From assembly GCA_029265815.1 (NCBI GenBank), contig JAJUGU010000009.1:1-64000 (forward strand): DNA of 64,000 nucleotides. The letters run 5' to 3'. Position numbers and translations under genes: made by a program. Shown piece by piece: positions 3,950 through 40,597 of the stretch. The stretch is from Anaerolineaceae bacterium. GTDB taxonomy: Bacteria; Chloroflexota; Anaerolineae; Anaerolineales; Anaerolineaceae. The notes beneath the pieces were generated by a model. The model was given only the letters and a program-made list of their open reading frames with translations. It ran no database searches and had not been told where the DNA came from. Numbering within the stretch: the stretch's first letter is position 1; every line of letters starts with the position of its first letter.

Positions 3950-5722
3950 CTACCTTTTCATCTTCGGGTCATAGGCATCCCGAAGTCCATCACCAACGAA
4001 GTTGAAACCAAGCACTGTCAAGAGGATCAACATACCGGCAGGGATCCACATAAACCAGAAATTGGTCATGACATAGGCATCTGAAGCAACATTAATGATG
4101 CTTCCCCATGAAGCCAGCGGGTATTTTACGCCAAGCCCTAGAAAGCCCAATGTCGCTTCTGCAATAATTACACCACCAAGTCCCGAAGATGCATAGACGA
4201 TCAACAAAGGCATGACATTTGGCACAAGGTGTTTCATAATTCTGCGGCTTGTTCTTAACCCGGTAGCCTCAGTGGCGATCATGAAGTCTTGTTCGCGCAG
4301 AGAAAGAATCTGGCCGCGGACGATACGAGCAACGCCTGTCCAGCCCAGAATGCCCAAAATAACCATCAAGAGGAAAATTCTCGCCATTGGCTTGACTTCA
4401 AGGGTGTCCATGACAGAGCCAAAGATCAACACCATTGGATAGAATGGGATACTGTTTACCAGATCGACGAAACGCATCAATGCCGTATCAACCCAGCCGC
4501 CAAAATAACCTGAGATACCACCAACGATGATGCCGATAAAGAGCTCGAAAAAGATGACCACAAAGCCGACCAGCAGGGAGACACGACCGCCATACATGAG
4601 GCGGGTCATGACATCCATGCCGTTGTTGTCAAGCCCGAGGAGGTGCTTTCCGGAGGGTTTTTCAAACACGCGGATTAGTTCTGTGGAAGTCTCTTTCTTG
4701 ATGTTGTAAGTGGTATTGACCCGCACAATTGAATAGTGCTCTGTTTCGTTGGTTTCATCTACATATGAAAACTTTGGTTCATCGTTATATATTGCTTCAC
4801 GTACAGCGGACTTAAACGAAACCGGCAAAAACAGCGATTGATCGAGAGGGTTCACGATAATATCAGATACCTGGGCAAATTCTTTGCCTGCACTGGTGTA
4901 AATTGTCGCTTGACCCTCATTGTATTTAATCGAATACGTTTGATTGCCAACAGAAAACGAATCCTTTTCCTTTGCGATGGCTCGAGTGCTGGCAAGTTTA
5001 AAGTCATAAGATGAAATTACCTGTGCGTCTGACTGATTGTAGGCATCATATACAGGCAGCATGGCCAGGGCAACATCATGTTCAATGGAAATTTGAGTTG
5101 CCTTTTTGTTTTTCGTCATTCGATAGGTAATTCCATTAAGTTCAAAGGAATTCTGCTTATTGTCAACCGCAGTTTGGTATGCTGCTTTAAGGTCTTCAGC
5201 AACGGTGTCACCTGCAAGGGGTCGAAAAATTCCGAGCATTACTTCGGCAACGGTTTCAAGCTGCATAATCCGGTACACGCCTTCGTCCTCGTTGGTAAAG
5301 TAATAAGTGTTATCACCGTAACTGAAAGATTCTAGATTCTTTCCGAGCGCGAGCAGGAATTGTGCACGTTCAGCACTGCCAAATTGCAGGCCATCCACAG
5401 CGGTATAGCGTAATTCAGTGTTGTAAGTGGCTCCTGCGTAATCCTTGGACATGGTACCTACGCCTTTAAAGACCTCGGTTTGTGTATACGGAGAGAATAA
5501 TGGACCAAGGAATGAAAAGATGAACATCACCAGAAGAATTCCAAAACCGATGACAGCAAGTTTGTTGCGAATAAATCGTTTGAAAACAAGCATCCCTGGC
5601 GAAAGAACTTTAACGCGTCGGGCATCGTCTAGATGCATTTCTTCGGGTTTTGCACCGGTTTGAGTGGCTTCTGGATCCATTTTTGGGGTTTTATCTTCAT
5701 TTTCAGGCATGATTATCACCAT
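3950..5722 (-). CDS. oppC: Oligopeptide ABC transporter permease OppC with large extracytoplasmic insertion
   Basis: About 590 residues, roughly twice the usual OppC length. An N-terminal OppC_N helix (KLAVIGFGILLVMFIFSFLG) is followed by about 300 residues without membrane segments. Then comes a normal permease domain: GRVSLLVGF, several TM helices and the EAA loop region EATGLRTSRRIMKHLVPN. Because the insertion lies between TM1 and TM2, it should sit outside the cytoplasmic membrane, where it could contact the large receptor OppA. The start ATG at 5722 shares a base with the oppB stop (TGATG); ATG at 5710, with GGTGAT upstream, is an alternative. Confidence 0.88.
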   Translation of the reverse strand: MVIIMPENEDKTPKMDPEATQTGAKPEEMHLDDARRVKVLSPGMLVFKRFIRNKLAVIGFGILLVMFIFSFLGPLFSPYTQTEVFKGVGTMSKDYAGATYNTELRYTAVDGLQFGSAERAQFLLALGKNLESFSYGDNTYYFTNEDEGVYRIMQLETVAEVMLGIFRPLAGDTVAEDLKAAYQTAVDNKQNSFELNGITYRMTKNKKATQISIEHDVALAMLPVYDAYNQSDAQVISSYDFKLASTRAIAKEKDSFSVGNQTYSIKYNEGQATIYTSAGKEFAQVSDIIVNPLDQSLFLPVSFKSAVREAIYNDEPKFSYVDETNETEHYSIVRVNTTYNIKKETSTELIRVFEKPSGKHLLGLDNNGMDVMTRLMYGGRVSLLVGFVVIFFELFIGIIVGGISGYFGGWVDTALMRFVDLVNSIPFYPMVLIFGSVMDTLEVKPMARIFLLMVILGILGWTGVARIVRGQILSLREQDFMIATEATGLRTSRRIMKHLVPNVMPLLIVYASSGLGGVIIAEATLGFLGLGVKYPLASWGSIINVASDAYVMTNFWFMWIPAGMLILLTVLGFNFVGDGLRDAYDPKMKR

Positions 5723-6711
5723 CAATTGGCTCTGACGCGTGGATCAACCACTGCATACATAATGTCAGCGAGGATCAGACTGATCTGCGTCAAAAGCAGG
5801 AGGAATGTTGTATAAAACATGGCAAATGGAATATCGCCGCGGACGATGGCTTGAAAGGATATGTAGCCAATGCCAGGGATTTGAAAGAGTGTTTCGGTGA
5901 TCAACGAGCCGCCAAACATAGAAGGGATCAGATAGCTCATGTAAGAAACAAGCGGGATCAGGGTGTTACGGAAGGCGTGTTTATTAATGACCACTTTTTC
6001 CGGTAGTCCTTTGGCACGAGCTGTTCGGATGTAATCAGAGTTAAGGACTTCAAGCATATTGGTTCGGTTATAACGCATCAGCCCACCGATGGAGAGCATG
6101 GTAAGCGTTACAACAGGTAAGACCATGTGATAACCGATATCTAGAACCTGTTGGAACGGGGTCATAGATGTATAGAACCTGCCAGTCAACCCGTACAGGT
6201 CAAACCAGCCAAGTTTGATTGAAAAAACGTATTTCAAGATGGTGGCGAGGAAAAATGTGGGCAGTGAAATACCTGCCAGTGCAAAAACTGTGATTGCGTA
6301 ATCTGTTTTACTATATTGTTTTGTCGCTGCCAGGTTACCCAGTGGTATTGACAGGAATATTTCGACGAGGAACGTGATGATATTGATAATGACGGAATAC
6401 CAGATTACCTGGTTGAACTTTTCGGTAACCGGGATACCGAAGTGCCAGGATTCGCCGAAATCACCTCGGATTGCATTTCCCATCCAACCAATAAAGCCGG
6501 GAATGATGCCGACATCAAGTTTATAAACAGAATTTAGTTGGTCTAACCACTCCTGGTACGTTTTATTACTTAATGGGTTGCTTGCTCGCTGCCGCGCGAT
6601 TGTTTCAACGTATGAGGTAGGTAAACACCGGATCACGGTATAGACCACCATCGCTCCGAAGAACGTGATGAACAATCCGAGCAGGAGTCTCCTTAGGATG
6701 AAATTTCGCAT
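5722..6711 (-). CDS. oppB: Oligopeptide ABC transporter permease OppB
   Basis: A 329-residue permease of the DppB/OppB family. It starts with the typical RRLLLGLFITFFGAMVVYTVIR helix, followed by the extracytoplasmic loop with LDQLNSVYKLD, five more TM helices and the EAA loop DYIRTARAKGLPEKVVINKH that contacts the ATPases. AAGGATC precedes the ATG. It forms the heterodimeric channel with OppC, whose gene overlaps its stop codon. A strong hairpin separates it from oppA. Confidence 0.92.
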   Translation of the reverse strand: MRNFILRRLLLGLFITFFGAMVVYTVIRCLPTSYVETIARQRASNPLSNKTYQEWLDQLNSVYKLDVGIIPGFIGWMGNAIRGDFGESWHFGIPVTEKFNQVIWYSVIINIITFLVEIFLSIPLGNLAATKQYSKTDYAITVFALAGISLPTFFLATILKYVFSIKLGWFDLYGLTGRFYTSMTPFQQVLDIGYHMVLPVVTLTMLSIGGLMRYNRTNMLEVLNSDYIRTARAKGLPEKVVINKHAFRNTLIPLVSYMSYLIPSMFGGSLITETLFQIPGIGYISFQAIVRGDIPFAMFYTTFLLLLTQISLILADIMYAVVDPRVRAN

Positions 6712-6770
6712 GGTGATCCTTTTATTCGAGGTATGAATTCTACCGAGTTATTTGTTAAGATAGTAATCCA

Positions 6771-6802
6771 AATGTGAGCCCGCCTAGAGGCAGGCTCACA
6801 TT
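6771..6802 (-). terminator. Intercistronic hairpin between oppA and oppB
   Basis: A 10-bp arm pair (6771-6780 with 6793-6802) with an internally self-complementary loop lies just after the oppA stop. No full U-run follows on the minus strand, so partial termination or mRNA end protection, giving more receptor than permease, is the likely role. Confidence 0.6.
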
Positions 6803-32352: not shown

Positions 32353-32380
32353 TTGACACTGAGGTGAGAAAGAATAAAAT
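32353..32380 (+). promoter_or_regulatory. Enolase promoter
   Basis: TTGACA (32353-32358) and TAAAAT (32375-32380) are separated by 16 nt. This predicts a start site near 32387, just before the leader attenuator. Confidence 0.72.
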
Positions 32381-32385
32381 AAAAT

Positions 32386-33792
<1,407 letters not shown>

Positions 33793-33844: not shown

Positions 33845-34343
33845 GTTATAACCTTTGATTACCATTCTTTTGTCCATTACGACCACACGGAATGGAATCG
33901 GATCGAGCGTTTTCGTGGAAGAATTGACCTGAGCTCAATTCATCCGGTCTGGTTCAGGTTTAAAAAAACCGCAGCCAAAATAAATCAATTCTGGAGGCCT
34001 GATGCGGTCTATTCCAGCCCGCTAAAACGAGCATTCCAAACAGCCAGCGTAATCGCAGAGACACCACAAAATCAGGTTCATATTTCGCAAGAATTAATCG
34101 ATATTGATTAGGGCGAATGGCATGGGATTCAGCCCCGAAGAGGTTCGATTGCGATGGCGAAAACGAATTGAAACCTGGTATCGACATCCTGACCAATTAC
34201 TCATCGCTGGTAGGGAGAACCTGGAACAGGTTCATTCCATTACAATGAGTTTAATCACCTTTCTTTCAGATGCAGTTTCTTCTAACGCTTTTGCAGGTGA
34301 AACATTTGATAGAGAATTGATTGATCCTGTTGGGAATATTTGA
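33845..34343 (+). pseudogene. Decayed histidine phosphatase (phosphoglycerate mutase-like) gene
   Basis: The frame reads FVHYDHTEWNRIERFRGRIDL, where the family motif is VRHGxTEWNRxxRFQG. The catalytic Arg-His-Gly is replaced by His-Tyr-Asp. PDAVYSSPLKRAFQTASVIAE is the intact second motif. A TAG follows LIDID where GEWHG continues, then the frame shifts near 34125 into FSPEEVRLRWRKR. The gene therefore has lost its catalytic residues, has an in-frame stop and has a frameshift. It lies between enolase and the fluoride riboswitch. The original could have been a phosphoglycerate mutase or an alpha-ribazole phosphatase-like enzyme. Confidence 0.85.
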
Positions 34344-34381: not shown

Positions 34382-34410
34382 TTGACGCAGTCGATCATTC
34401 CCGTTACAAT
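34382..34410 (+). promoter_or_regulatory. Promoter of the crcB fluoride operon
   Basis: TTGACG (34382-34387) and TACAAT (34405-34410) have 17 nt between them. The aptamer begins 8 nt downstream, at the expected transcript 5' end. Confidence 0.82.
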
Positions 34411-34417
34411 GAAATTC

Positions 34418-34466
34418 GAGTGATGAGGCTCACTCAATCACCCGCCATGTGCTGATGGCCTCTGCC
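34418..34466 (+). ncRNA. Fluoride riboswitch aptamer (crcB motif)
   Basis: All elements of the crcB-motif RNA are visible. Pseudoknot strands GAGTG (34418-34422) and CACTC (34431-34435) pair. ATGA is followed by the P1 strand GAGGC (34425-34429), which pairs with GCCTC (34458-34462). The short P3 CAC/GTG (34439-34441 with 34449-34451) lies between them, and the conserved CTGATGGCCTCT follows. The 5' and 3' conserved strands closely follow the structurally known Thermotoga petrophila aptamer as I recall it. The RNA precedes crcB, the classic target. Confidence 0.93.
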
Positions 34467-34492
34467 AGTTTATTTGGGGCAGAGGTTTTTTT
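34459..34492 (+). terminator. Riboswitch-controlled transcription terminator
   Basis: CCTCTGCC (34459-34466) pairs with GGCAGAGG (34478-34485), followed by T7. The left arm is also the 3' strand of aptamer stem P1, so ligand-bound aptamer and terminator exclude each other. Fluoride should switch crcB on. Confidence 0.92.
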
Positions 34493-34529
34493 ATTGAAAA
34501 CCATAAACTTTGAAATTATTTGAGAGAGT

Positions 34530-34904
34530 ATGGAAAAATTTCTTATCATATCTGCAGGTGCAATACTGGGTGCCAATGCACGCTATTGGATTGGAGATTG
34601 GGTTGCTAAGAAAATTGGCACAAGTTTTCCGTATGGCACATTCATCATCAACTTTACCGGAAGTCTGCTAATTGGGTTCTTCCTTACGCTGGCTACGGAA
34701 CGGTTGATCATTGATCCAAGGTGGCGGTTATTTGTCGCAGTCGGTTTCTTGGGGGCTTACACTACCTTCTCAACTTATGCTTATGAGAGTTTTAATCTAC
34801 TCATTAATGGCCAGTGGTTGGAAGGAGTGATAAATTTATTCGGTAGTATCTTGTTAGGAGTTCTAGCTGTCGGGTTGGGAGTTTATCTTGGGAAATCAAT
34901 ATAA
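34530..34904 (+). CDS. crcB: Fluoride channel CrcB/Fluc
   Basis: A 124-residue four-helix membrane protein. The family signatures GANARYWIGDW, FPYGTFIINFTGSLLIGF and GFLGAYTTFSTYAYE are all present; the last holds the polar track that lines the fluoride pore. Fluc works as a dual-topology dimer that lets F- leave the cytoplasm. Expression should rise with fluoride through the riboswitch upstream. A DUF190/CBS protein follows 33 nt downstream. Confidence 0.96.
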   Translation: MEKFLIISAGAILGANARYWIGDWVAKKIGTSFPYGTFIINFTGSLLIGFFLTLATERLIIDPRWRLFVAVGFLGAYTTFSTYAYESFNLLINGQWLEGVINLFGSILLGVLAVGLGVYLGKSI

Positions 34905-34937
34905 TAAAAATTAAAGAGATCAAACGAGGAGGTAATC

Positions 34938-36218
34938 ATGCCGGATCTGTCTTTACAAAAGAAAACAAAAAGGCTGCGAATATATATCAGCGAGAAAGAC
35001 CGATGGCGTGGCACTTCTCTGGATGTTGCATTGATTGAGACCCTGCGTAAAAATGGGATCGCGGGAGCGACAGTTTTCAGGGGAATTGTGGGCTATGGCG
35101 CTCATTCCCTGATTCATACGATCCGGATTGAAGTTTTGACCTCCGATTTACCTTTGGTGATTGAAACCATTGACACGCCCGAAAAGATCGCAGCTGTACT
35201 GGATATCATCTATCCAATGGTTCGTGAAGGTTTGATCACAGTTGAGGATGTGGAAATTGTGAAATATACACATCGTTACCTCAATCCCCTTCCTGCTGAT
35301 AAACTGGTATCTGAGGTGATGACACCCGAGGTTGTGACTTTAAGCCCAGATATGAGCATCCTTCAGGCCTGGACTCGGATGCTGAAAAACAAGGTAAAAG
35401 CAACTCCGGTTGTTGATCCATCAGGCAGGGTTGTTGGAATTCTCACCGATGAGGATCTACTGGAACGCGCCGGTATTCAGCAAAGACTCTCAGTTGCGAT
35501 TCGAATGGATGCCAACGAGATTAACCAGGAACTAAGCAATTTAGAAAAATCATCCTTATTGGTTCGCGACATTATGACGCAGCCTGTAATAACCGCTCAA
35601 GAAAGTGAAACCTTAGGGGTGGCTACTGCACGCATGGTGCAATCTAAGTTAAAACGTCTGCCGGTTGTAAACCATGACGGAATTCTGGTTGGTGTGTTGT
35701 CGCGGCTTGATATCCTTAGACAGGTAGCCAAGGTCACTTATGAGATTCCCGCCCCGAATATTCCTACTGGGGCTGTCAGAACTGTTTCGGATATCATGAG
35801 TTCTGAAATCCCAATGATTAATCAAGATGATGATCTACCCTTGATCATTGAAAAATTCTCAAAATCAGATTCGCATCGATTAATCGTGGTAAATGATGAG
35901 GGGGTTGGTATTGGTTTGTTGAGCGATTCAGATATCGTTACACGCGTTCAACCTACGAAACGACGCGGAATTTTAGACGCGTTGAAAAAAATTGGCAAAC
36001 CCCCGGTCGGAAAAGAAACCGCCTTTGATTTGATGTCACCCGGGTTGTTAACGATTCCTCCTGATACCTCCATTGTTGATGCTTTAAAGAGAATGTTAGC
36101 CGACTCGCGGAAATGGATGGTTGTTGTCGATGATAAAGGGCATCCATTAGGTTTAGTAGATCGGCAAATGATGCTCGAAGCGATTGCTGTGTATGAAAAG
36201 AAAGATCCGGAATCGTAA
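34938..36218 (+). CDS. DUF190 domain protein with four CBS domains
   Basis: 426 residues. Residues about 10-112 form a DUF190 domain (LRIYISEKDRWRGTSLDVALIETLRKNG), a PII-like fold found beside crcB genes. Two Bateman modules follow with CBS pairs near 125-265 and 285-420 (VSEVMTPEVVTLSP, VRDIMTQPVITAQE, VSDIMSSEIPMINQ, AFDLMSPGLLTIPP). CBS pairs usually bind adenine nucleotides or SAM. It is probably co-transcribed with crcB and so fluoride-induced. A regulatory or sensory role is inferred; no catalytic residues are seen. AGGAGG lies 7 nt before the ATG. Confidence 0.88.
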   Translation: MPDLSLQKKTKRLRIYISEKDRWRGTSLDVALIETLRKNGIAGATVFRGIVGYGAHSLIHTIRIEVLTSDLPLVIETIDTPEKIAAVLDIIYPMVREGLITVEDVEIVKYTHRYLNPLPADKLVSEVMTPEVVTLSPDMSILQAWTRMLKNKVKATPVVDPSGRVVGILTDEDLLERAGIQQRLSVAIRMDANEINQELSNLEKSSLLVRDIMTQPVITAQESETLGVATARMVQSKLKRLPVVNHDGILVGVLSRLDILRQVAKVTYEIPAPNIPTGAVRTVSDIMSSEIPMINQDDDLPLIIEKFSKSDSHRLIVVNDEGVGIGLLSDSDIVTRVQPTKRRGILDALKKIGKPPVGKETAFDLMSPGLLTIPPDTSIVDALKRMLADSRKWMVVVDDKGHPLGLVDRQMMLEAIAVYEKKDPES

Positions 36219-36415: not shown

Positions 36416-36435
36416 ATATTCATTGTATTGAATAT
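36416..36435. promoter_or_regulatory. ArsR-type operator at the arsR1 start
   Basis: A perfect inverted repeat, ATATTCA-N6-TGAATAT. Its core ATTCA-N6-TGAAT recurs at the start of the second arsR gene (46425-46440). Confidence 0.72.
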
Positions 36436-36805
36436 GATTGAAGAACAAAAGATAAAAAACGATCCTCTTGAAGCAGAAACACAGGTGTTCAAAATTCTTA
36501 CCCACCCGGCAAGGATCGCGATTCTCAATATCCTCAGGGATGGCGAGCGTTGCGTCTGCCATATGGAAGCCTATTTAGGTTACCGCCAATCATACATTTC
36601 TCAACAACTTGCGGTCTTGCGCGAAGCCGGTCTGATTCAAGACCGCCGCGATGGCTGGAACATATACTATCGTGTGACCAATCCGAATATCTATGCCGTA
36701 CTGGATGCAGTCCAAAATTTTACAGGACGACCGGTTGAATCTTCAGATGGCCGTGTGGTAAGTTGTAATTGCCCGCATTGCATTGCAAAAGAAAACAAAG
36801 GATAA
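36434..36805 (+). CDS. arsR: ArsR/SmtB-family metalloregulator (arsR1)
   Basis: About 123 residues. The winged helix holds TQVFKILTHPARIAILNIL, then the metal-site segment ERCVCHMEAYLG (compare CVCDL of ArsR) and recognition helix YISQQLAVLREAGL. A C-terminal CNCPHC gives more thiols. ATG 36434 directly abuts the operator; a TTG at 36428 lies inside it at the position of the ATG in the paralogous gene. No Shine-Dalgarno is present, so initiation is probably near-leaderless. It heads a plus-strand ars gene set, and arsenite should release it. Confidence 0.88.
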   Translation: MIEEQKIKNDPLEAETQVFKILTHPARIAILNILRDGERCVCHMEAYLGYRQSYISQQLAVLREAGLIQDRRDGWNIYYRVTNPNIYAVLDAVQNFTGRPVESSDGRVVSCNCPHCIAKENKG

Positions 36806-36851
36806 GCTGTTTTTTGATTCTGTAAAAACTTTTAAATATAGAGGTGTACCG

Positions 36852-37088
36852 ATGAAAAACATCAAAATTCTGGGTTCGGGCTGTGCGAACTGTAAACGTC
36901 TGGAAGCGTTGGCTCGCAAGGTAGTTGGTGATCTGGGGATAGAAGCGGAATTTGAAAAAGTGACTGATATGAATGAAATCATGAAATGGCCGATTCTCTC
37001 AACCCCTGGACTGGTTATCGACGGTAAAGTCGTTTCATTCGGCCGGATTCCTGCAGAAACAGAAATCGCTGCCTGGCTGAAGGAATAA
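36852..37088 (+). CDS. Small thioredoxin-like protein (TM0996/redox-active disulfide protein 2 family)
   Basis: 78 residues. The active-site motif is GSGCANCKRLEA, with Cys11 and Cys14 early in the chain, and the fold continues to STPGLVIDGKVVSFGR with its cis-proline. GAGGTG lies 5 nt before ATG 36852. Proteins of this family commonly occur with ArsR regulators and DUF318/ArsP permeases. It could reduce ArsC or act with the permease encoded next. A hairpin separates it from the permease gene. Confidence 0.88.
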   Translation: MKNIKILGSGCANCKRLEALARKVVGDLGIEAEFEKVTDMNEIMKWPILSTPGLVIDGKVVSFGRIPAETEIAAWLKE

Positions 37089-37097
37089 CCTGATGGA

Positions 37098-37125
37098 ATG
37101 GGCAGCTTTGTCTGCCCATTCTTTT
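37098..37125 (+). terminator. Hairpin between thioredoxin-like and permease genes
   Basis: AATGGGCAG (37098-37106) pairs with CTGCCCATT (37113-37121), followed by CTTTT. It is a terminator or an internal attenuator within the ars set. Confidence 0.65.
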
Positions 37126-37179
37126 GGTTAAAAGACATTCAAGTTTTTGCATGTGATACTCTTAACTATAGAAGGTACT

Positions 37180-38511
37180 ATGGACTCTGTATTGAATTAT
37201 ATTGGTATGTTACTCTGGTCTGGCTGGACAGGTCTGCTGGATTACCTGGCGGCGCATGTTCTCCTCTGCCTGGTGCCGGCATTTGTGATTGCCGGCTTTA
37301 TGAGCTCAATGATCCCCAAAGAGGCGATCACGCGTTATCTTGGGCCAAAAGCATCCAGGTGGATCAGCTACCCGGCCTCAGCTTTTGGCGGGTTTATCCT
37401 GGCGGTATGTTCCTGTACCATTCTGCCACTCTTTGCCGGAATCTGGAAGCGGGGCGCAGGCCTCGGCCCGGCGATCACGTTTCTCTTTGTCGGCCCGGCC
37501 ATCAACATTCTGGCCATCACCTACACCGGAGCAACCATCGGGATGGATATTGCCATCTCTCGCCTGGTGCTTTCCATTGCATTTGGTATCTTCATTGGAC
37601 TGATCATGGCCTGGATCTTCCGAAAAGAGGAAAGCGCTCGTGAAACTGAGATGGCAGCCAGCGGCGTGTTTGACCAAACCGCGAAAGTTAAACCGGCAGT
37701 TTGGGTGTTGTTCCTCATGTTAGTCGCAGTGTTGATCGTTGGCACATTACAGGTTGATCTATTGACCAATGTGTATGCCAGCGTAAATTTGCCTTTTGAT
37801 TGGGCGAATGGATTGGGTTCGTTCCTGTCCACCATGAACCTGACCATTCAGGGCGCCGTCCTCATTCTGATGCTGGTCGTGATCGGCATCACCGCCTGGA
37901 AAGGGTTTGAAAAAATCTTCGACGGCTTCACCGGCTGGACCTATGCTGCCTTTGCATTCATTGCAATCACCATCCTGATTGCGGCCCCCAAAGAAGAAGT
38001 GGGCTCGCTGGTTATCGGGATTAACGGCCGCCTGATTGGAGAAATCATCCTGCTCATCGGTATTGCAGTTGTTGCCAGCCGTTCATTCACCAAGGATGAA
38101 CTCAGTGGTTGGGTTTGGGAAACATGGAAATTCGTCAAGCAGATATTTCCACTTCTCATCGTTGGCGTCTTTGCTGCCGGTATCGTCAAAGTAATCATCC
38201 CTGAAGCCTGGGTGCGCACCATCGCCGGACAGAATACCATCTGGGCCAACCTGGTGGGTGTTTTATTCGGTGTGTTTATGTACTTTCCCACCCTGGTTGA
38301 AGTTCCAGTTGCAAAAATGTTTCTTGATCTGGGCATGGCGCGCGGTCCGCTGCTGGCTTACCTGCTTTCAGATCCAGAACTCTCGCTCCAGTCTATTCTA
38401 GTATTGAATGGTGTGATGGGTAAAAAGAAGACGGCAATCTATGTCTCTTTGGTGGCTGTATTCAGTACTCTGGCTGGGTATTTGTTCGGTTTAATTCTGG
38501 CTGCTGGTTAA
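37180..38511 (+). CDS. ArsP/DUF318-family permease
   Basis: About 443 residues with 8-10 membrane helices, in two halves. The conserved first-half block is CLVPAFVIAGFMSSMIP, then AVCSCTILPLFAGIWKRGAG and FLFVGPAINILAI. This CSCTILP block marks the PF03773 permease family, which includes ArsP, an efflux protein for trivalent organoarsenicals. ATG 37180, with AGAAGG 4 nt upstream, is preferred to a TTG at 37147. Its place between a thioredoxin-like gene and arsC supports a metalloid role, but the exact substrate is inferred. Confidence 0.85.
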   Translation: MDSVLNYIGMLLWSGWTGLLDYLAAHVLLCLVPAFVIAGFMSSMIPKEAITRYLGPKASRWISYPASAFGGFILAVCSCTILPLFAGIWKRGAGLGPAITFLFVGPAINILAITYTGATIGMDIAISRLVLSIAFGIFIGLIMAWIFRKEESARETEMAASGVFDQTAKVKPAVWVLFLMLVAVLIVGTLQVDLLTNVYASVNLPFDWANGLGSFLSTMNLTIQGAVLILMLVVIGITAWKGFEKIFDGFTGWTYAAFAFIAITILIAAPKEEVGSLVIGINGRLIGEIILLIGIAVVASRSFTKDELSGWVWETWKFVKQIFPLLIVGVFAAGIVKVIIPEAWVRTIAGQNTIWANLVGVLFGVFMYFPTLVEVPVAKMFLDLGMARGPLLAYLLSDPELSLQSILVLNGVMGKKKTAIYVSLVAVFSTLAGYLFGLILAAG

Positions 38512-38526
38512 AAAAGGAGAACAAAG

Positions 38527-39027
38527 ATGGATCCTCCAACAGTTTTGGAAAAAGCATTGGAGTTTCATGGTCATCGCTGTTGGGCAAGTGTGGCCGGCGT
38601 ACGGGTTGGGCTGGCCGCCCTCGAAAAATTGGGCGTCAAGCGCTCTGGCGGTACGCAGCTATATGGCATCGTAGAGATTGGTGAAGAACACGGTGGCATG
38701 TGTTTTGGCGATGGCGTGCAATACGCCACCGGATGCACCTTTGGCAAGGGCAATATTCGCACGCTGACACATGGTAAATTTGTGCTGACCATGATTGACA
38801 ATAAATTCAGACACAGTGTGCGTGTAACCACCCGCAATGTGGTCATCAAACGCACCCAGGAATCCGAATTCATCGAATTTCGTAAGAAAGGGATTCCCGC
38901 TTCAAAGATTGCTGTAGAATTGATTGACCGCGCTGTTGATTTTACCTGGCTGAACCAGACGAGAACCATTTCAAAATTGATTCGGTTCAAAATATCAAAC
39001 ATACTCCGGGACAGCCGCAAGATTTAA
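38527..39027 (+). CDS. FmdE-family protein
   Basis: 166 residues. The FmdE core is clear: FHGHRCWASVAGVRVG, then GMCFGDGVQYATGCTFGKGNI, with conserved His and Cys residues. It lacks the C-terminal zinc ribbon of many FmdE proteins. The family is named after a protein in methanogen formylmethanofuran dehydrogenase operons; its function is unsettled, and roles in metal or cofactor handling have been suggested. AAGGAG precedes the ATG, 15 nt after the permease stop, so the two are co-transcribed. Confidence 0.87.
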   Translation: MDPPTVLEKALEFHGHRCWASVAGVRVGLAALEKLGVKRSGGTQLYGIVEIGEEHGGMCFGDGVQYATGCTFGKGNIRTLTHGKFVLTMIDNKFRHSVRVTTRNVVIKRTQESEFIEFRKKGIPASKIAVELIDRAVDFTWLNQTRTISKLIRFKISNILRDSRKI

Positions 39028-39059
39028 CCCCGCATTTTTGCGAGTAATGCGGCGAAGTG

Positions 39060-39263
39060 ATGGTCGAGCGATATGATCGATTTAAAATGGGAAAACTGTT
39101 TGCATTCCATCCGCTGATAAGTAAGCTTTACAATCCCAAAGAGCTCTATGAGAGCATTAAACACAAAGAGTACATTAAAAAAATATTATGGTTTCGGAAA
39201 TCTGGTTTACTATTTAAGCAATGTGCTTATTTGTGTAAAAATTTGCATGAAGATAAATGGTAA
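39060..39263 (+). CDS. Possible small protein of unknown function
   Basis: A 67-codon frame rich in Lys, Tyr and Leu fills the gap between fmdE and arsC and ends 3 nt before the arsC start. No signal, TM helix or known motif is visible, and the ribosome site is weak. A small inverted repeat (39030-39035 with 39047-39052) precedes it. It may be a real small gene or only chance. Confidence 0.3.
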   Translation: MVERYDRFKMGKLFAFHPLISKLYNPKELYESIKHKEYIKKILWFRKSGLLFKQCAYLCKNLHEDKW

Positions 39264-39266
39264 AGC

Positions 39267-39704
39267 ATGAATAATCCAAAAAGAAAAATCCTTTTTTTAT
39301 GCACCGGGAATTCCTGCCGCTCGCAAATGGCAGAAGCCATTGTAAATTCACAGTATGGTGATCAGTGGGAGGCAGTCAGTGCAGGCACTCAACCCGCTGG
39401 CTATGTTCATCCTAAATCAATACAGGTATTGAAGGAAATTGGAATTGATCACCAGGGTTATTCTAAAAATGCTGACCAGTTTCGTAACATAGACTTTGAT
39501 CTGGTTGTAACTGTATGTGATGACGCAGCCGAAAATTGTCCAGTCTGGCTTGGCAAGGGTAAACGGGTTCACATGGGTTTCCCTGACCCTGCCAAAGCAG
39601 CAGGCAATGACGAGGAGGTCTTACGAGTCTTCCGTGCTGTTCTGTATGATATGATGCAAAAAATCTCAGACTTAATGACAAAAATGAATTCCATAGAAAG
39701 GTAG
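39267..39704 (+). CDS. arsC: Thioredoxin-coupled arsenate reductase ArsC
   Basis: 145 residues of the low-molecular-weight phosphatase-like ArsC. The P-loop LCTGNSCRSQ has nucleophile Cys12 and Cys17. Cys84 and Cys91 in VTVCDDAAENCPVW match the Cys82/Cys89 relay of the Staphylococcus and Bacillus enzymes. HMGFPDPAKA supplies the conserved Asp-Pro. It reduces arsenate to arsenite for export by Acr3 or another permease. A thioredoxin is needed as reductant, and a thioredoxin-like protein is encoded in the same cluster. Confidence 0.95.
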   Translation: MNNPKRKILFLCTGNSCRSQMAEAIVNSQYGDQWEAVSAGTQPAGYVHPKSIQVLKEIGIDHQGYSKNADQFRNIDFDLVVTVCDDAAENCPVWLGKGKRVHMGFPDPAKAAGNDEEVLRVFRAVLYDMMQKISDLMTKMNSIER

Positions 39705-39916
39705 CGTGATGTTTTCGAATTGCTAAGAATGACATTAATTAGTATAGCCAGATGAACGACTTTCTAAAACTCAATAGTGGAATGATTGCTAAATGATTGG
39801 GATGGTCTTTACCAAGAAATAAGTTGTCATCGTTTCATACATTTTTCACTTCGTTTGGTATTTTTAGAACACGAACAGTCAGGACTCTAAAGATATTATG
39901 GAAAAAGGGATCAAAA

Positions 39917-40597
39917 ATGGCCTATCCTTGTGTGATATGTGGGAGTGAATTACAGCTGGTAAACACAACGGCTGTGTGTTCTTTTTGTAATCAAGAGACC
40001 CCAACCAGATACCTTTGTGAAAAAGGGCATCACATCTGTGAAGAATGCCAGCTGGCTGACTGGCCGCAGGTGGTGATACGGGTTTGTGAAGGGTCAAAAG
40101 AAACCGATCCATCAAAGATCGTAAACCTGATCTTGAAGCACCCGATGGCTGTGATGCACAGTCCGCAGCATCATATTGTTGTCACCCCTGCGTTTTTATC
40201 CGCACTGCGAAATTCAGGTATTCGGCTTCTCAGTTCTGGGCGTTTATCTTCAGCGATCGAACGGACTCAGGGGATTCCGCTTGGAGCGTGCGGTACCCGT
40301 GGCGAATGTGGAGCTGCCACCAGCGTTGGCGCGTTAGTGTCTATACTAACTGGGGCATCTTTTGCCAAAGATAGAGAACGCTCTCTATCTTTGCAGGCGA
40401 CTGCTGAAACCTTAATGGAAATCGCGCAGGCTAGCGGACCACGATGCTGTAAGCAAAGCGTATACCTGGCGATTGAGACTGCATCTGCCTTTTTGAAAAG
40501 GGAACTTGAGATCAATTTACCTGTTGAACCGCACTGCGAATTTTCAGTACGCAACAAAGAATGTAAAAAGGAACGGTGCAAATACTATGTTGACTGA
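39917..40597 (+). CDS. DUF5714-family cysteine-rich protein
   Basis: 226 residues. The N-terminal part is a double zinc ribbon: CVICG, CSFCNQ, CEKGHHICEEC. The rest carries HPMAVMHSPQHHIVVTPAFLSALRN, a glycine/cysteine loop GACGTRGECGAATSVG, GPRCCKQSVYLA and a C-terminal cluster ending CKKERCKYY. This matches my memory of DUF5714, which is uncharacterised and found in anaerobes. AAAGGGA lies 6 nt before ATG 39917. It overlaps the lipoate ligase gene by 11 nt, so the two are likely coupled. Confidence 0.78.
   Translation: MAYPCVICGSELQLVNTTAVCSFCNQETPTRYLCEKGHHICEECQLADWPQVVIRVCEGSKETDPSKIVNLILKHPMAVMHSPQHHIVVTPAFLSALRNSGIRLLSSGRLSSAIERTQGIPLGACGTRGECGAATSVGALVSILTGASFAKDRERSLSLQATAETLMEIAQASGPRCCKQSVYLAIETASAFLKRELEINLPVEPHCEFSVRNKECKKERCKYYVD

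Follow-up and report, generated by a model that had tools for sequence, protein, structure and literature searches.

Why should a gene for a DUF190 protein stand directly behind a gene for a fluoride channel? The question is raised by a stretch of 64,000 nucleotides (nt) from an Anaerolineaceae bacterium (assembly GCA_029265815.1, contig JAJUGU010000009.1, positions 1 to 64,000; hereafter the window), in which a fluoride riboswitch, the fluoride-channel gene crcB and a gene joining a DUF190 domain to four CBS domains lie in line and form one apparent transcription unit. The stop codon of crcB and the start of the DUF190-CBS gene are 33 nt apart, and the two genes are probably co-transcribed. 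A riboswitch followed by crcB is ordinary; the DUF190 partner, with its regulator-type fold, is the interesting part of the locus. Gene linkage ties DUF190 to fluoride resistance in Bacteria and Archaea, and the reading towards which we lean, by analogy with known transporter regulators, is that DUF190 may be a regulator of PII type devoted to the Fluc channel, fused here to four CBS domains.

The linkage is nearly invariant in a class sample of 296 genomes, 79 of which have DUF190 and 125 CrcB. Seventy-nine of the 84 DUF190 matches immediately follow a CrcB match on its own strand, with 54–239 nt between the profile matches, and one stands upstream of CrcB, its genome having a downstream one as well. 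The remaining four comprise those of G031 and G063, which belong to the same genus and have DUF190 10–13 kilobases (kb) from crcB, that of G289, at a contig edge, and that of G199, a weak match (27 bits) in a frame of 1315 amino acids (aa). Counted by genome, an adjacent same-strand CrcB–DUF190 pair is present in 76/79 DUF190 genomes, and CrcB occurs in 78/79 genomes with DUF190 against 47/217 without it (Fisher p = 5.6e-37, a value overstated by the relatedness of the genomes). Ordinary P-II proteins, which served as the control, are present in 128/296 class genomes and show no such pairing: among the 150 matches listed, 11 lie on a contig with CrcB, ten of them at least 11.6 kb away, and the single one near it (173 nt, the only one within 1.5 kb among the matches listed) is the DUF190-CBS gene of G130. 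In one class locus (L125, genome G223, positions 5004–6198), crcB lies between a 100-aa DUF190 frame before it and a DUF190 frame of CBS-fusion size after it, with one fluoride riboswitch ahead of all three.

The pairing extends well beyond the class. A set of named loci was picked by DUF190 sequence alone, with a narrowed DUF190 alignment, from many bacterial and archaeal groups; it comprises the best 80 of at least 555 confirmed DUF190 loci, with a bias to sequences near the query, and spans Thermococcus, Methanosarcina, Archaeoglobaceae, Planctomycetota, Actinomycetota, Bradyrhizobium and Sporomusa. With a profile built from the class CrcB proteins beside DUF190, CrcB was found in 74/80 of these loci on the strand of DUF190 and no more than 600 nt from it; the six exceptions comprise two contig ends, one locus with CrcB 2.5 kb off and three without CrcB in the locus. 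DUF190 is a gene of its own in 78/80. A model built from class aptamers (described below), of which the named loci are independent, detects a fluoride riboswitch (expectation value, E, below 0.001) in 31/80 of them, upstream on the DUF190 strand in 30 and within 200 nt of crcB in 23. In the class itself, where matches to this model are partly circular, a riboswitch lies upstream in 25/79 DUF190 loci.

Could DUF190 be a mere passenger, carried along by selection on crcB and without a role in fluoride resistance? The literature searched, in its available text, yielded no functional test of DUF190, which leaves room for such a reading; adjacency maintained across Bacteria and Archaea between separate genes, with the motifs preserved, makes it highly improbable. 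Judged from gene neighbourhoods, the DUF190-CBS protein in all likelihood acts in fluoride resistance. Neither a tie of the family to fluoride nor a function assigned to it was found in the open-licence literature, and an earlier mention elsewhere is possible. Pfam describes DUF190 as uncharacterized, with structures released in 2003 and 2006; a table in PMC9394441, in the part available, names COG1993 'PII-like signaling protein'; and the available text of PMC3543383 describes a DUF190 protein of Pelobacter carbinolicus as distantly related to GlnK, and two such proteins as possible membrane-channel modulators.

The DUF190 domain of the window protein matches PF02641 with 118.1 bits (cut-off 23.4) and is the only DUF190 match reported in the genome. 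It belongs to the same family (DUF190/UPF0166/COG1993) as PH1503 (Protein Data Bank (PDB) entry 2dcl, 94.9 bits) and TM0021 (PDB entry 1o51, 55.4 bits), which are single-domain proteins of 127 and 114 residues, whereas the window protein adds four CBS (PF00571) stretches after the DUF190 domain. The first three of these carry the motif G-h-h-S/T-x-x-D (residues 167, 252 and 326), which we take to be the adenosyl-ribose contact of CBS domains, and the fourth is without it. Three such motifs never occurred in 2000 shuffles, and at least two are present in 36/37 class DUF190 frames of 400 aa or more. CBS fusions account for 2/80 named loci, both relatives of the window protein: a record named Chloroflexi, from a metagenome-assembled genome (L225, 67% identity), and one named Leptolinea (L236, 54%). 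DUF190 frames large enough for a CBS fusion, judged by size alone, also occur widely among the other families in the phylum.

The DUF190 domain is predicted to have a PII-like fold. It models as β-α-β-β-α-β; a T-loop joins strand 2 to strand 3, and residues 57–69 are placed with low certainty. The nearest structural neighbours of the model are solved DUF190 proteins (Z-scores of 13.6, with 2dcl, and 12.8), followed by CPII with AMP (10.7), SbtB (9.9), CutA (9.6), GlnK of the AmtB complex 2ns1 (9.3) and LarC2 (9.2); Z values below 10 are to be read as ties. The segment containing the T-loop (residues 48–71) is the most conserved of three compared across 160 sequences, with a mean entropy of 1.11 against 1.32 before it and 1.76 after it. 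Residues R48, G52, G54 and S57 are kept in 93–100% of these sequences and in the window protein. Such conservation is what a loop with a common target would give. The full-length model (predicted local distance difference test score, pLDDT, 76.8; predicted template modelling score, pTM, 0.58), in which the CBS part is covered by only three sequences, is consistent with a PII-like domain followed by CBS modules and does not fix how the two are placed relative to each other.

Fold, gene pairing and conserved T-loop together lead to the comparison with GlnK–AmtB and SbtB–SbtA. In those pairs a regulator of this fold (Z-scores of 9.3 with 2ns1_B and 9.2 with 7egk_B) with a conserved T-loop is encoded beside a transporter, as a putative one is in the window; the window differs in that the transporter is a Fluc channel, the domain lacks a PF00543 match and the pairing is one of adjacent genes. 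According to the available text of PMC8395244, the T-loop blocks the Amt channel, being inserted with ADP and withdrawn with ATP, Mg and 2-oxoglutarate. By analogy, a DUF190-CBS protein presumably translated from the same message as CrcB would dock as a trimer on the cytoplasmic face of CrcB, and its T-loop (pattern RGxxGxGxxSxIHT) would reach the channel mouth as that of GlnK does on AmtB and that of SbtB on SbtA. Adenine nucleotides, putatively bound at the DUF190 subunit clefts and by the CBS domains, would decide docking, and this control would keep a passive channel open only when useful. The initial annotation had proposed a nucleotide-sensing protein working together with fluoride export; gene neighbourhoods and the PII-like fold lend support to that idea. 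Direct action on CrcB seems to us a reasonably probable role for the protein, and plugging or gating by the T-loop a possible one whose chances we put somewhat below even.

Several observations weigh against a dedicated Fluc regulator. CutA and LarC2 tie with SbtB and GlnK in the structural comparison, and the fold alone thus does not single out transporter regulators. The P-II family PF00543 gives no match to the window domain at E ≤ 1, where only DUF190 matches, and the protein is therefore to be called PII-like rather than a canonical PII. Residue 58, within the T-loop segment, is Leu in the window protein and Arg in 81% of members. Fluc consists of two subunits set in opposite orientations, a dimer that matches a PII trimer less neatly than AmtB does. 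The 80 named loci contain no DUF190–CrcB fusion, and CrcB proteins with and without a DUF190 partner (40 of the 44 unpartnered ones of sufficient length were compared) differ gradually, with no residue confined to the partnered group. By genome, riboswitch presence in the class is not tied to CrcB presence (28/66 genomes, p = 0.54) and is loosely tied to DUF190 (24/66 genomes, p = 0.03); the link to CrcB is absent at this level because class riboswitches also precede other genes. Finally, DUF190 has other neighbours: the available text of PMC3543383 places the Pelobacter carbinolicus genes beside presumed acetoin, glycerol or diol channels, with no mention there of crcB, the neighbour in the window, and that of PMC4176598 places a Caulobacter DUF190-domain protein beside zinc-regulated efflux genes.

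These other neighbours would also suit a signal protein of the fluoride regulon that makes no contact with CrcB, sensing instead the drop in energy charge when enolase and pyrophosphatase are blocked by fluoride, and acting on some other target such as glycolysis or another transporter. Such a role would agree with the CBS motifs, with the enolase gene in the same locus, with the DUF190-CBS genes of G031 and G063 that lie away from crcB, and with a Sporomusa locus (L219) in which a fluoride riboswitch is followed by a Na/H exchanger, a universal stress protein and then DUF190, while the 10 kb of the locus give no match to CrcB. We regard it as unlikely, as the near-constant position of DUF190 at a short distance downstream of crcB fits a direct partner. 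The prevalent crcB–DUF190 order, and the occurrence of DUF190 also behind tandem crcB genes, could also be expected of an assembly or stability factor for the dual-topology CrcB dimer in which nucleotide binding is a relic; 47/125 class crcB genomes do without DUF190, showing that CrcB does not generally depend on it, and the conserved T-loop and added CBS domains point to signalling, so that an assembly role appears improbable.

The channel itself is a clear member of its family. CrcB passes TIGR00494 (110.9 bits, cut-off 80.45) and PF02537 (102 bits, cut-off 32.9), is the only CRCB match reported in the genome, and keeps R18, N41 and TTFS at 78–81, with Y in place of F at 83; it would let fluoride out of the cell. 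The order of crcB followed by a DUF190 domain and four CBS domains, as initially annotated, is borne out by TIGR00494 and by the Pfam matches. Differences among class CrcB proteins at positions 53–58, 64 and 89 were considered as markers of a DUF190 partner and dropped, being weaker in the named set. In three Bradyrhizobium loci (L218, L234 and L248), DUF190 is preceded by a tandem of two different crcB genes, of which the first encodes TTVSS and the second TTFST or TTFSA. The features of the locus are collected in Table 1.

Table 1. Coordinates of the fluoride locus in the window, with the evidence for each feature.
Feature	Positions	Strand	Evidence
Second fluoride-riboswitch element, before enolase	32378..32449	+	Class model; aligned with three relatives
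Terminator of enolase leader, CTTCTGTCTTG/CAAGACAGAAG, five U	32437..32471	+	Terminator scan
Enolase	32512..33792	+	Profile match; comparison with three relatives
Histidine-phosphatase (phosphoglycerate-mutase-like) gene remnant	33869..34256	+	In-frame stop, frameshift
Promoter-like site TTGACG-17-TACAAT	34382..34410	+	Consensus match 10/12; position
Fluoride riboswitch aptamer, RF01734 envelope	34410..34471	+	Rfam alignment, covariation in relatives
Intrinsic terminator	34459..34492	+	8–9 pairs, -15.5 kcal/mol, seven U
crcB, 124-aa Fluc-type fluoride exporter	34530..34904	+	Profile matches, conserved residues
AGGAGG, presumed ribosome-binding site of DUF190-CBS gene	34927..34932	+	By eye
DUF190-CBS protein, 426 aa	34938..36218	+	One DUF190 and four CBS stretches
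DUF190 domain, residues 11–107, predicted PII-like fold	34968..35258	+	Pfam match, structure model
T-loop segment, residues 48–71	35079..35150	+	Conservation; position in predicted fold
Four CBS domains	35307..36191	+	Pfam; motif scan

The element at 34410, which reaches to 34492 with its terminator, is named a fluoride riboswitch by its anatomy and its relatives, although it scores below the Rfam cut-off. P1 (34418–34422/34431–34435) and the pseudoknot (GAGGC at 34425–34429, GCCTC at 34458–34462) are each paired at 5/5 positions. The promoter-like site, P1, pseudoknot strands and conserved segment of the initial annotation were all found, within 34382–34463, the segment being CTGATGGCCTCT at 34452–34463 (by eye). 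Of the P3 that it had also listed, about two pairs (34444–34445/34451–34452) stand in the Rfam alignment. It had named an RF01734 scan as the check, a score below threshold counting as a refutation, and in formal terms this is the outcome: no match was obtained in the window at the gathering cut-off (34 bits). Once the cut-off is lifted, the element aligns end to end and scores 27.3 bits on a 301-nt stretch (E = 9e-6). This is the only match reported in the 2.58-Mb genome at E ≤ 0.001 (E = 1.8e-5), with 150/325 first-look candidates scored. Other Rfam families at the crcB leader all fall below their own gathering scores. In its P1, pseudoknot, conserved 3′ segment and terminator formed from the 3′ strand of the pseudoknot, the element resembles the transcription-terminating type of RF01734; it departs from that family in its score, in a nearly absent P3 and in the pseudoknot allele, a compensated change from the GGAGU/ACUCC-type consensus to GAGGC/GCCUC. 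The low score is attributed to the short P3 and to the swapped allele, which cannot score as pairs in the covariance model.

Within the class this allele is the commonest. The class riboswitch set comprises 78 matches, 58 with sequence and 20 without, and the exact GAGGC/GCCTC pair is present in 28/58 aptamers. A pseudoknot register was assigned in 58/58, an optimistic figure because each register is the best one searched for, and a few are visibly wrong. In an alignment of 35 of the 58 (A3, from which long-linker aptamers were excluded and in which P3 is misaligned), 100% of P1 cells and 99.4% of pseudoknot cells are paired (98.8% overall), and five of the nine P1 and pseudoknot pairs change on both sides. 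Double-changed cells number 75 against 21.9 in shuffles, and covariation over the whole structure is 0.482 against 0.202 when shuffled and at most 0.138 with the partners slid. Two measures are weaker, the number of further pair types being equalled by 32/500 shuffles and that of double-change pairs by 6/500. The model built from A3 scores the window at 44.2 bits (E = 8.5e-12), the window being one of its 35 rows.

It is worth asking whether the 34410 element is itself a decayed riboswitch, leaving crcB constitutive or silent. Its sub-threshold Rfam score and two-pair P3 could be read so, as could a minimum-energy fold in which GCCAU/AUGGC forms another hairpin and the P1 region pairs differently, an aptamer fold whose stability does not exceed that of shuffles (z = -0.80), and the decay of the neighbouring element at 32378. 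Decay is nonetheless very unlikely, given that P1, the pseudoknot and the terminator are all kept, that the class model scores the element as stated above, and that P3 is also short, by eye, in a relative from the family (G255). From this evidence the element is very probably a working or recently working fluoride riboswitch.

The terminator has arms at 34459–34466 and 34478–34485 and a U run at 34486–34492, and the stem folds with the energy given in Table 1 when begun at 34458. Its 5′ arm takes four or five bases of the pseudoknot 3′ strand and none of P1; the competition with P1 that had been annotated is accordingly rejected, as terminator and P1 have no bases in common. A terminator at the pseudoknot 3′ strand is found in 44/58 class aptamers, a count that depends on the registers chosen, terminators having been sought only at that strand. 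Both strands of the 64 kb together have 19 terminators of this strength, and two of these begin within the window's two fluoride elements, which speaks against chance. According to the available text of PMC13273304, terminator and pseudoknot compete in the cereus and T. petrophila switches, with support from covariation and with some variants extending into P3, and fluoride stabilizes the aptamer so that transcription continues. Fluoride switching, which is known for the family, is assigned here by homology: in the absence of fluoride the pseudoknot would open, the GCCTC strand would build the terminator and transcription would end before crcB, whereas with Mg-bound fluoride the GAGGC/GCCTC pseudoknot would hold and the polymerase would read into crcB and the DUF190-CBS gene. 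Transcription is expected to start at about 34417, the first base of P1. Promoter-like matches are no commoner in the region than in shuffles (6 found, 6.0 expected), and only its position therefore supports the site.

The riboswitch–crcB–DUF190-CBS unit belongs to a larger fluoride locus that includes the enolase upstream, a connection absent from the initial annotation. The leader element of this enolase is weak when taken alone (class model 15.8 bits, E = 0.0045; Rfam 12.1 bits, E = 0.65). The nearest relatives of the enolase, in G308 and G307 (93% identity each) and G311 (88%), are preceded by intact riboswitches (48.3, 48.0 and 47.5 bits; loci L310, L311 and L312), with which the window leader aligns by eye over 72 nt without a gap. 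For the 5′ arm of P1 the window reads TGTA and the three relatives AGCG, a pseudoknot strand has A for their C, and the terminator is kept; most likely, then, the leader is a decayed riboswitch that has lost P1. The window enolase is the only one found in the genome (26 contigs, 99.4% complete), and a second enolase, 65–68% identical to it, is present in each of G307, G308 and G311. A sole enolase of the fluoride type behind a P1-less riboswitch may be a stress copy that has become the housekeeping gene. Between enolase and the crcB leader lies a phosphatase remnant whose RHG motif is gone; the histidine-phosphatase gene after the enolase is intact in G307 and broken in the window.

The relatives show how such loci vary. 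In G308, enolase, crcB and DUF190-CBS are consecutive, with one riboswitch found, before enolase. G307 has five fluoride riboswitches within 12 kb (L340, G307:C2:44500-56500), four of them in two divergent pairs. The five serve crcB-DUF190-CBS, two MutS-like ATPases, enolase together with the phosphatase, a 111-aa frame (6461–6796, plus strand, of L340) that matches neither Pfam nor NCBIfam, and a P-type ATPase that comes closest to the proton-efflux type, although its 579 bits fall short of the 615.5 cut-off of that model. Back-to-back divergent riboswitches also occur in the Leptolinea locus L236 (4373–4536), before crcB-DUF190-CBS and a MutS-like pair, and in L075 (1407–1565, genome G005), where two divergent aptamers lie about 30 nt apart in a class genome without a CrcB match. 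A third riboswitch candidate in the window (39324–39350, minus strand), a weak 9-bit match to the class model, was rejected.

Much of this company is familiar. In their available text, PMC11139923 describes enolase as a fluoride target frequent in riboswitch operons, PMC2864571 lists MutS genes among the known company of the fluoride riboswitch, and PMC5533749 reports the fluoride operon ppaC-uspA-eno-gpmA-crcB-orf5249 of E. cloacae FRM. As described there, that operon resembles the window in bringing an enolase, a phosphoglycerate-mutase-like gene and crcB together in a single locus with a fluoride riboswitch; the window differs in having two leaders, a mutase-like pseudogene, an enolase leader without P1 and the added DUF190-CBS gene. 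Leader decay and DUF190-CBS are thus what the window adds to the known eno-gpmA-crcB arrangement. Further downstream (36428–40597) lie genes for an ArsR-type regulator, a permease that comes closest to the SO_0444/SaoE efflux models without reaching their cut-offs, an FmdE-domain protein and a DUF5714 protein, along with two small frames that by eye resemble an ArsC-type phosphatase and a redox protein; together these may be a cluster for arsenic or metal efflux.

Fluc channels have generally been seen as passive pores without a gate. The broadest form of our proposal, which we hold tentatively and at slightly less than an even chance, is that DUF190 would be the missing regulatory subunit of Fluc in Bacteria and Archaea, joining the GlnK–AmtB and SbtB–SbtA pairs, and that the CBS form of Chloroflexota would put the gating of fluoride efflux under the adenylate state or a cyclic dinucleotide, besides the transcriptional control by fluoride. 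If this is true, many Fluc channels would be regulated by a conserved PII-like partner rather than simply passive, and DUF190/COG1993 would gain a function; both questions are approachable with small soluble proteins and Fluc flux assays.

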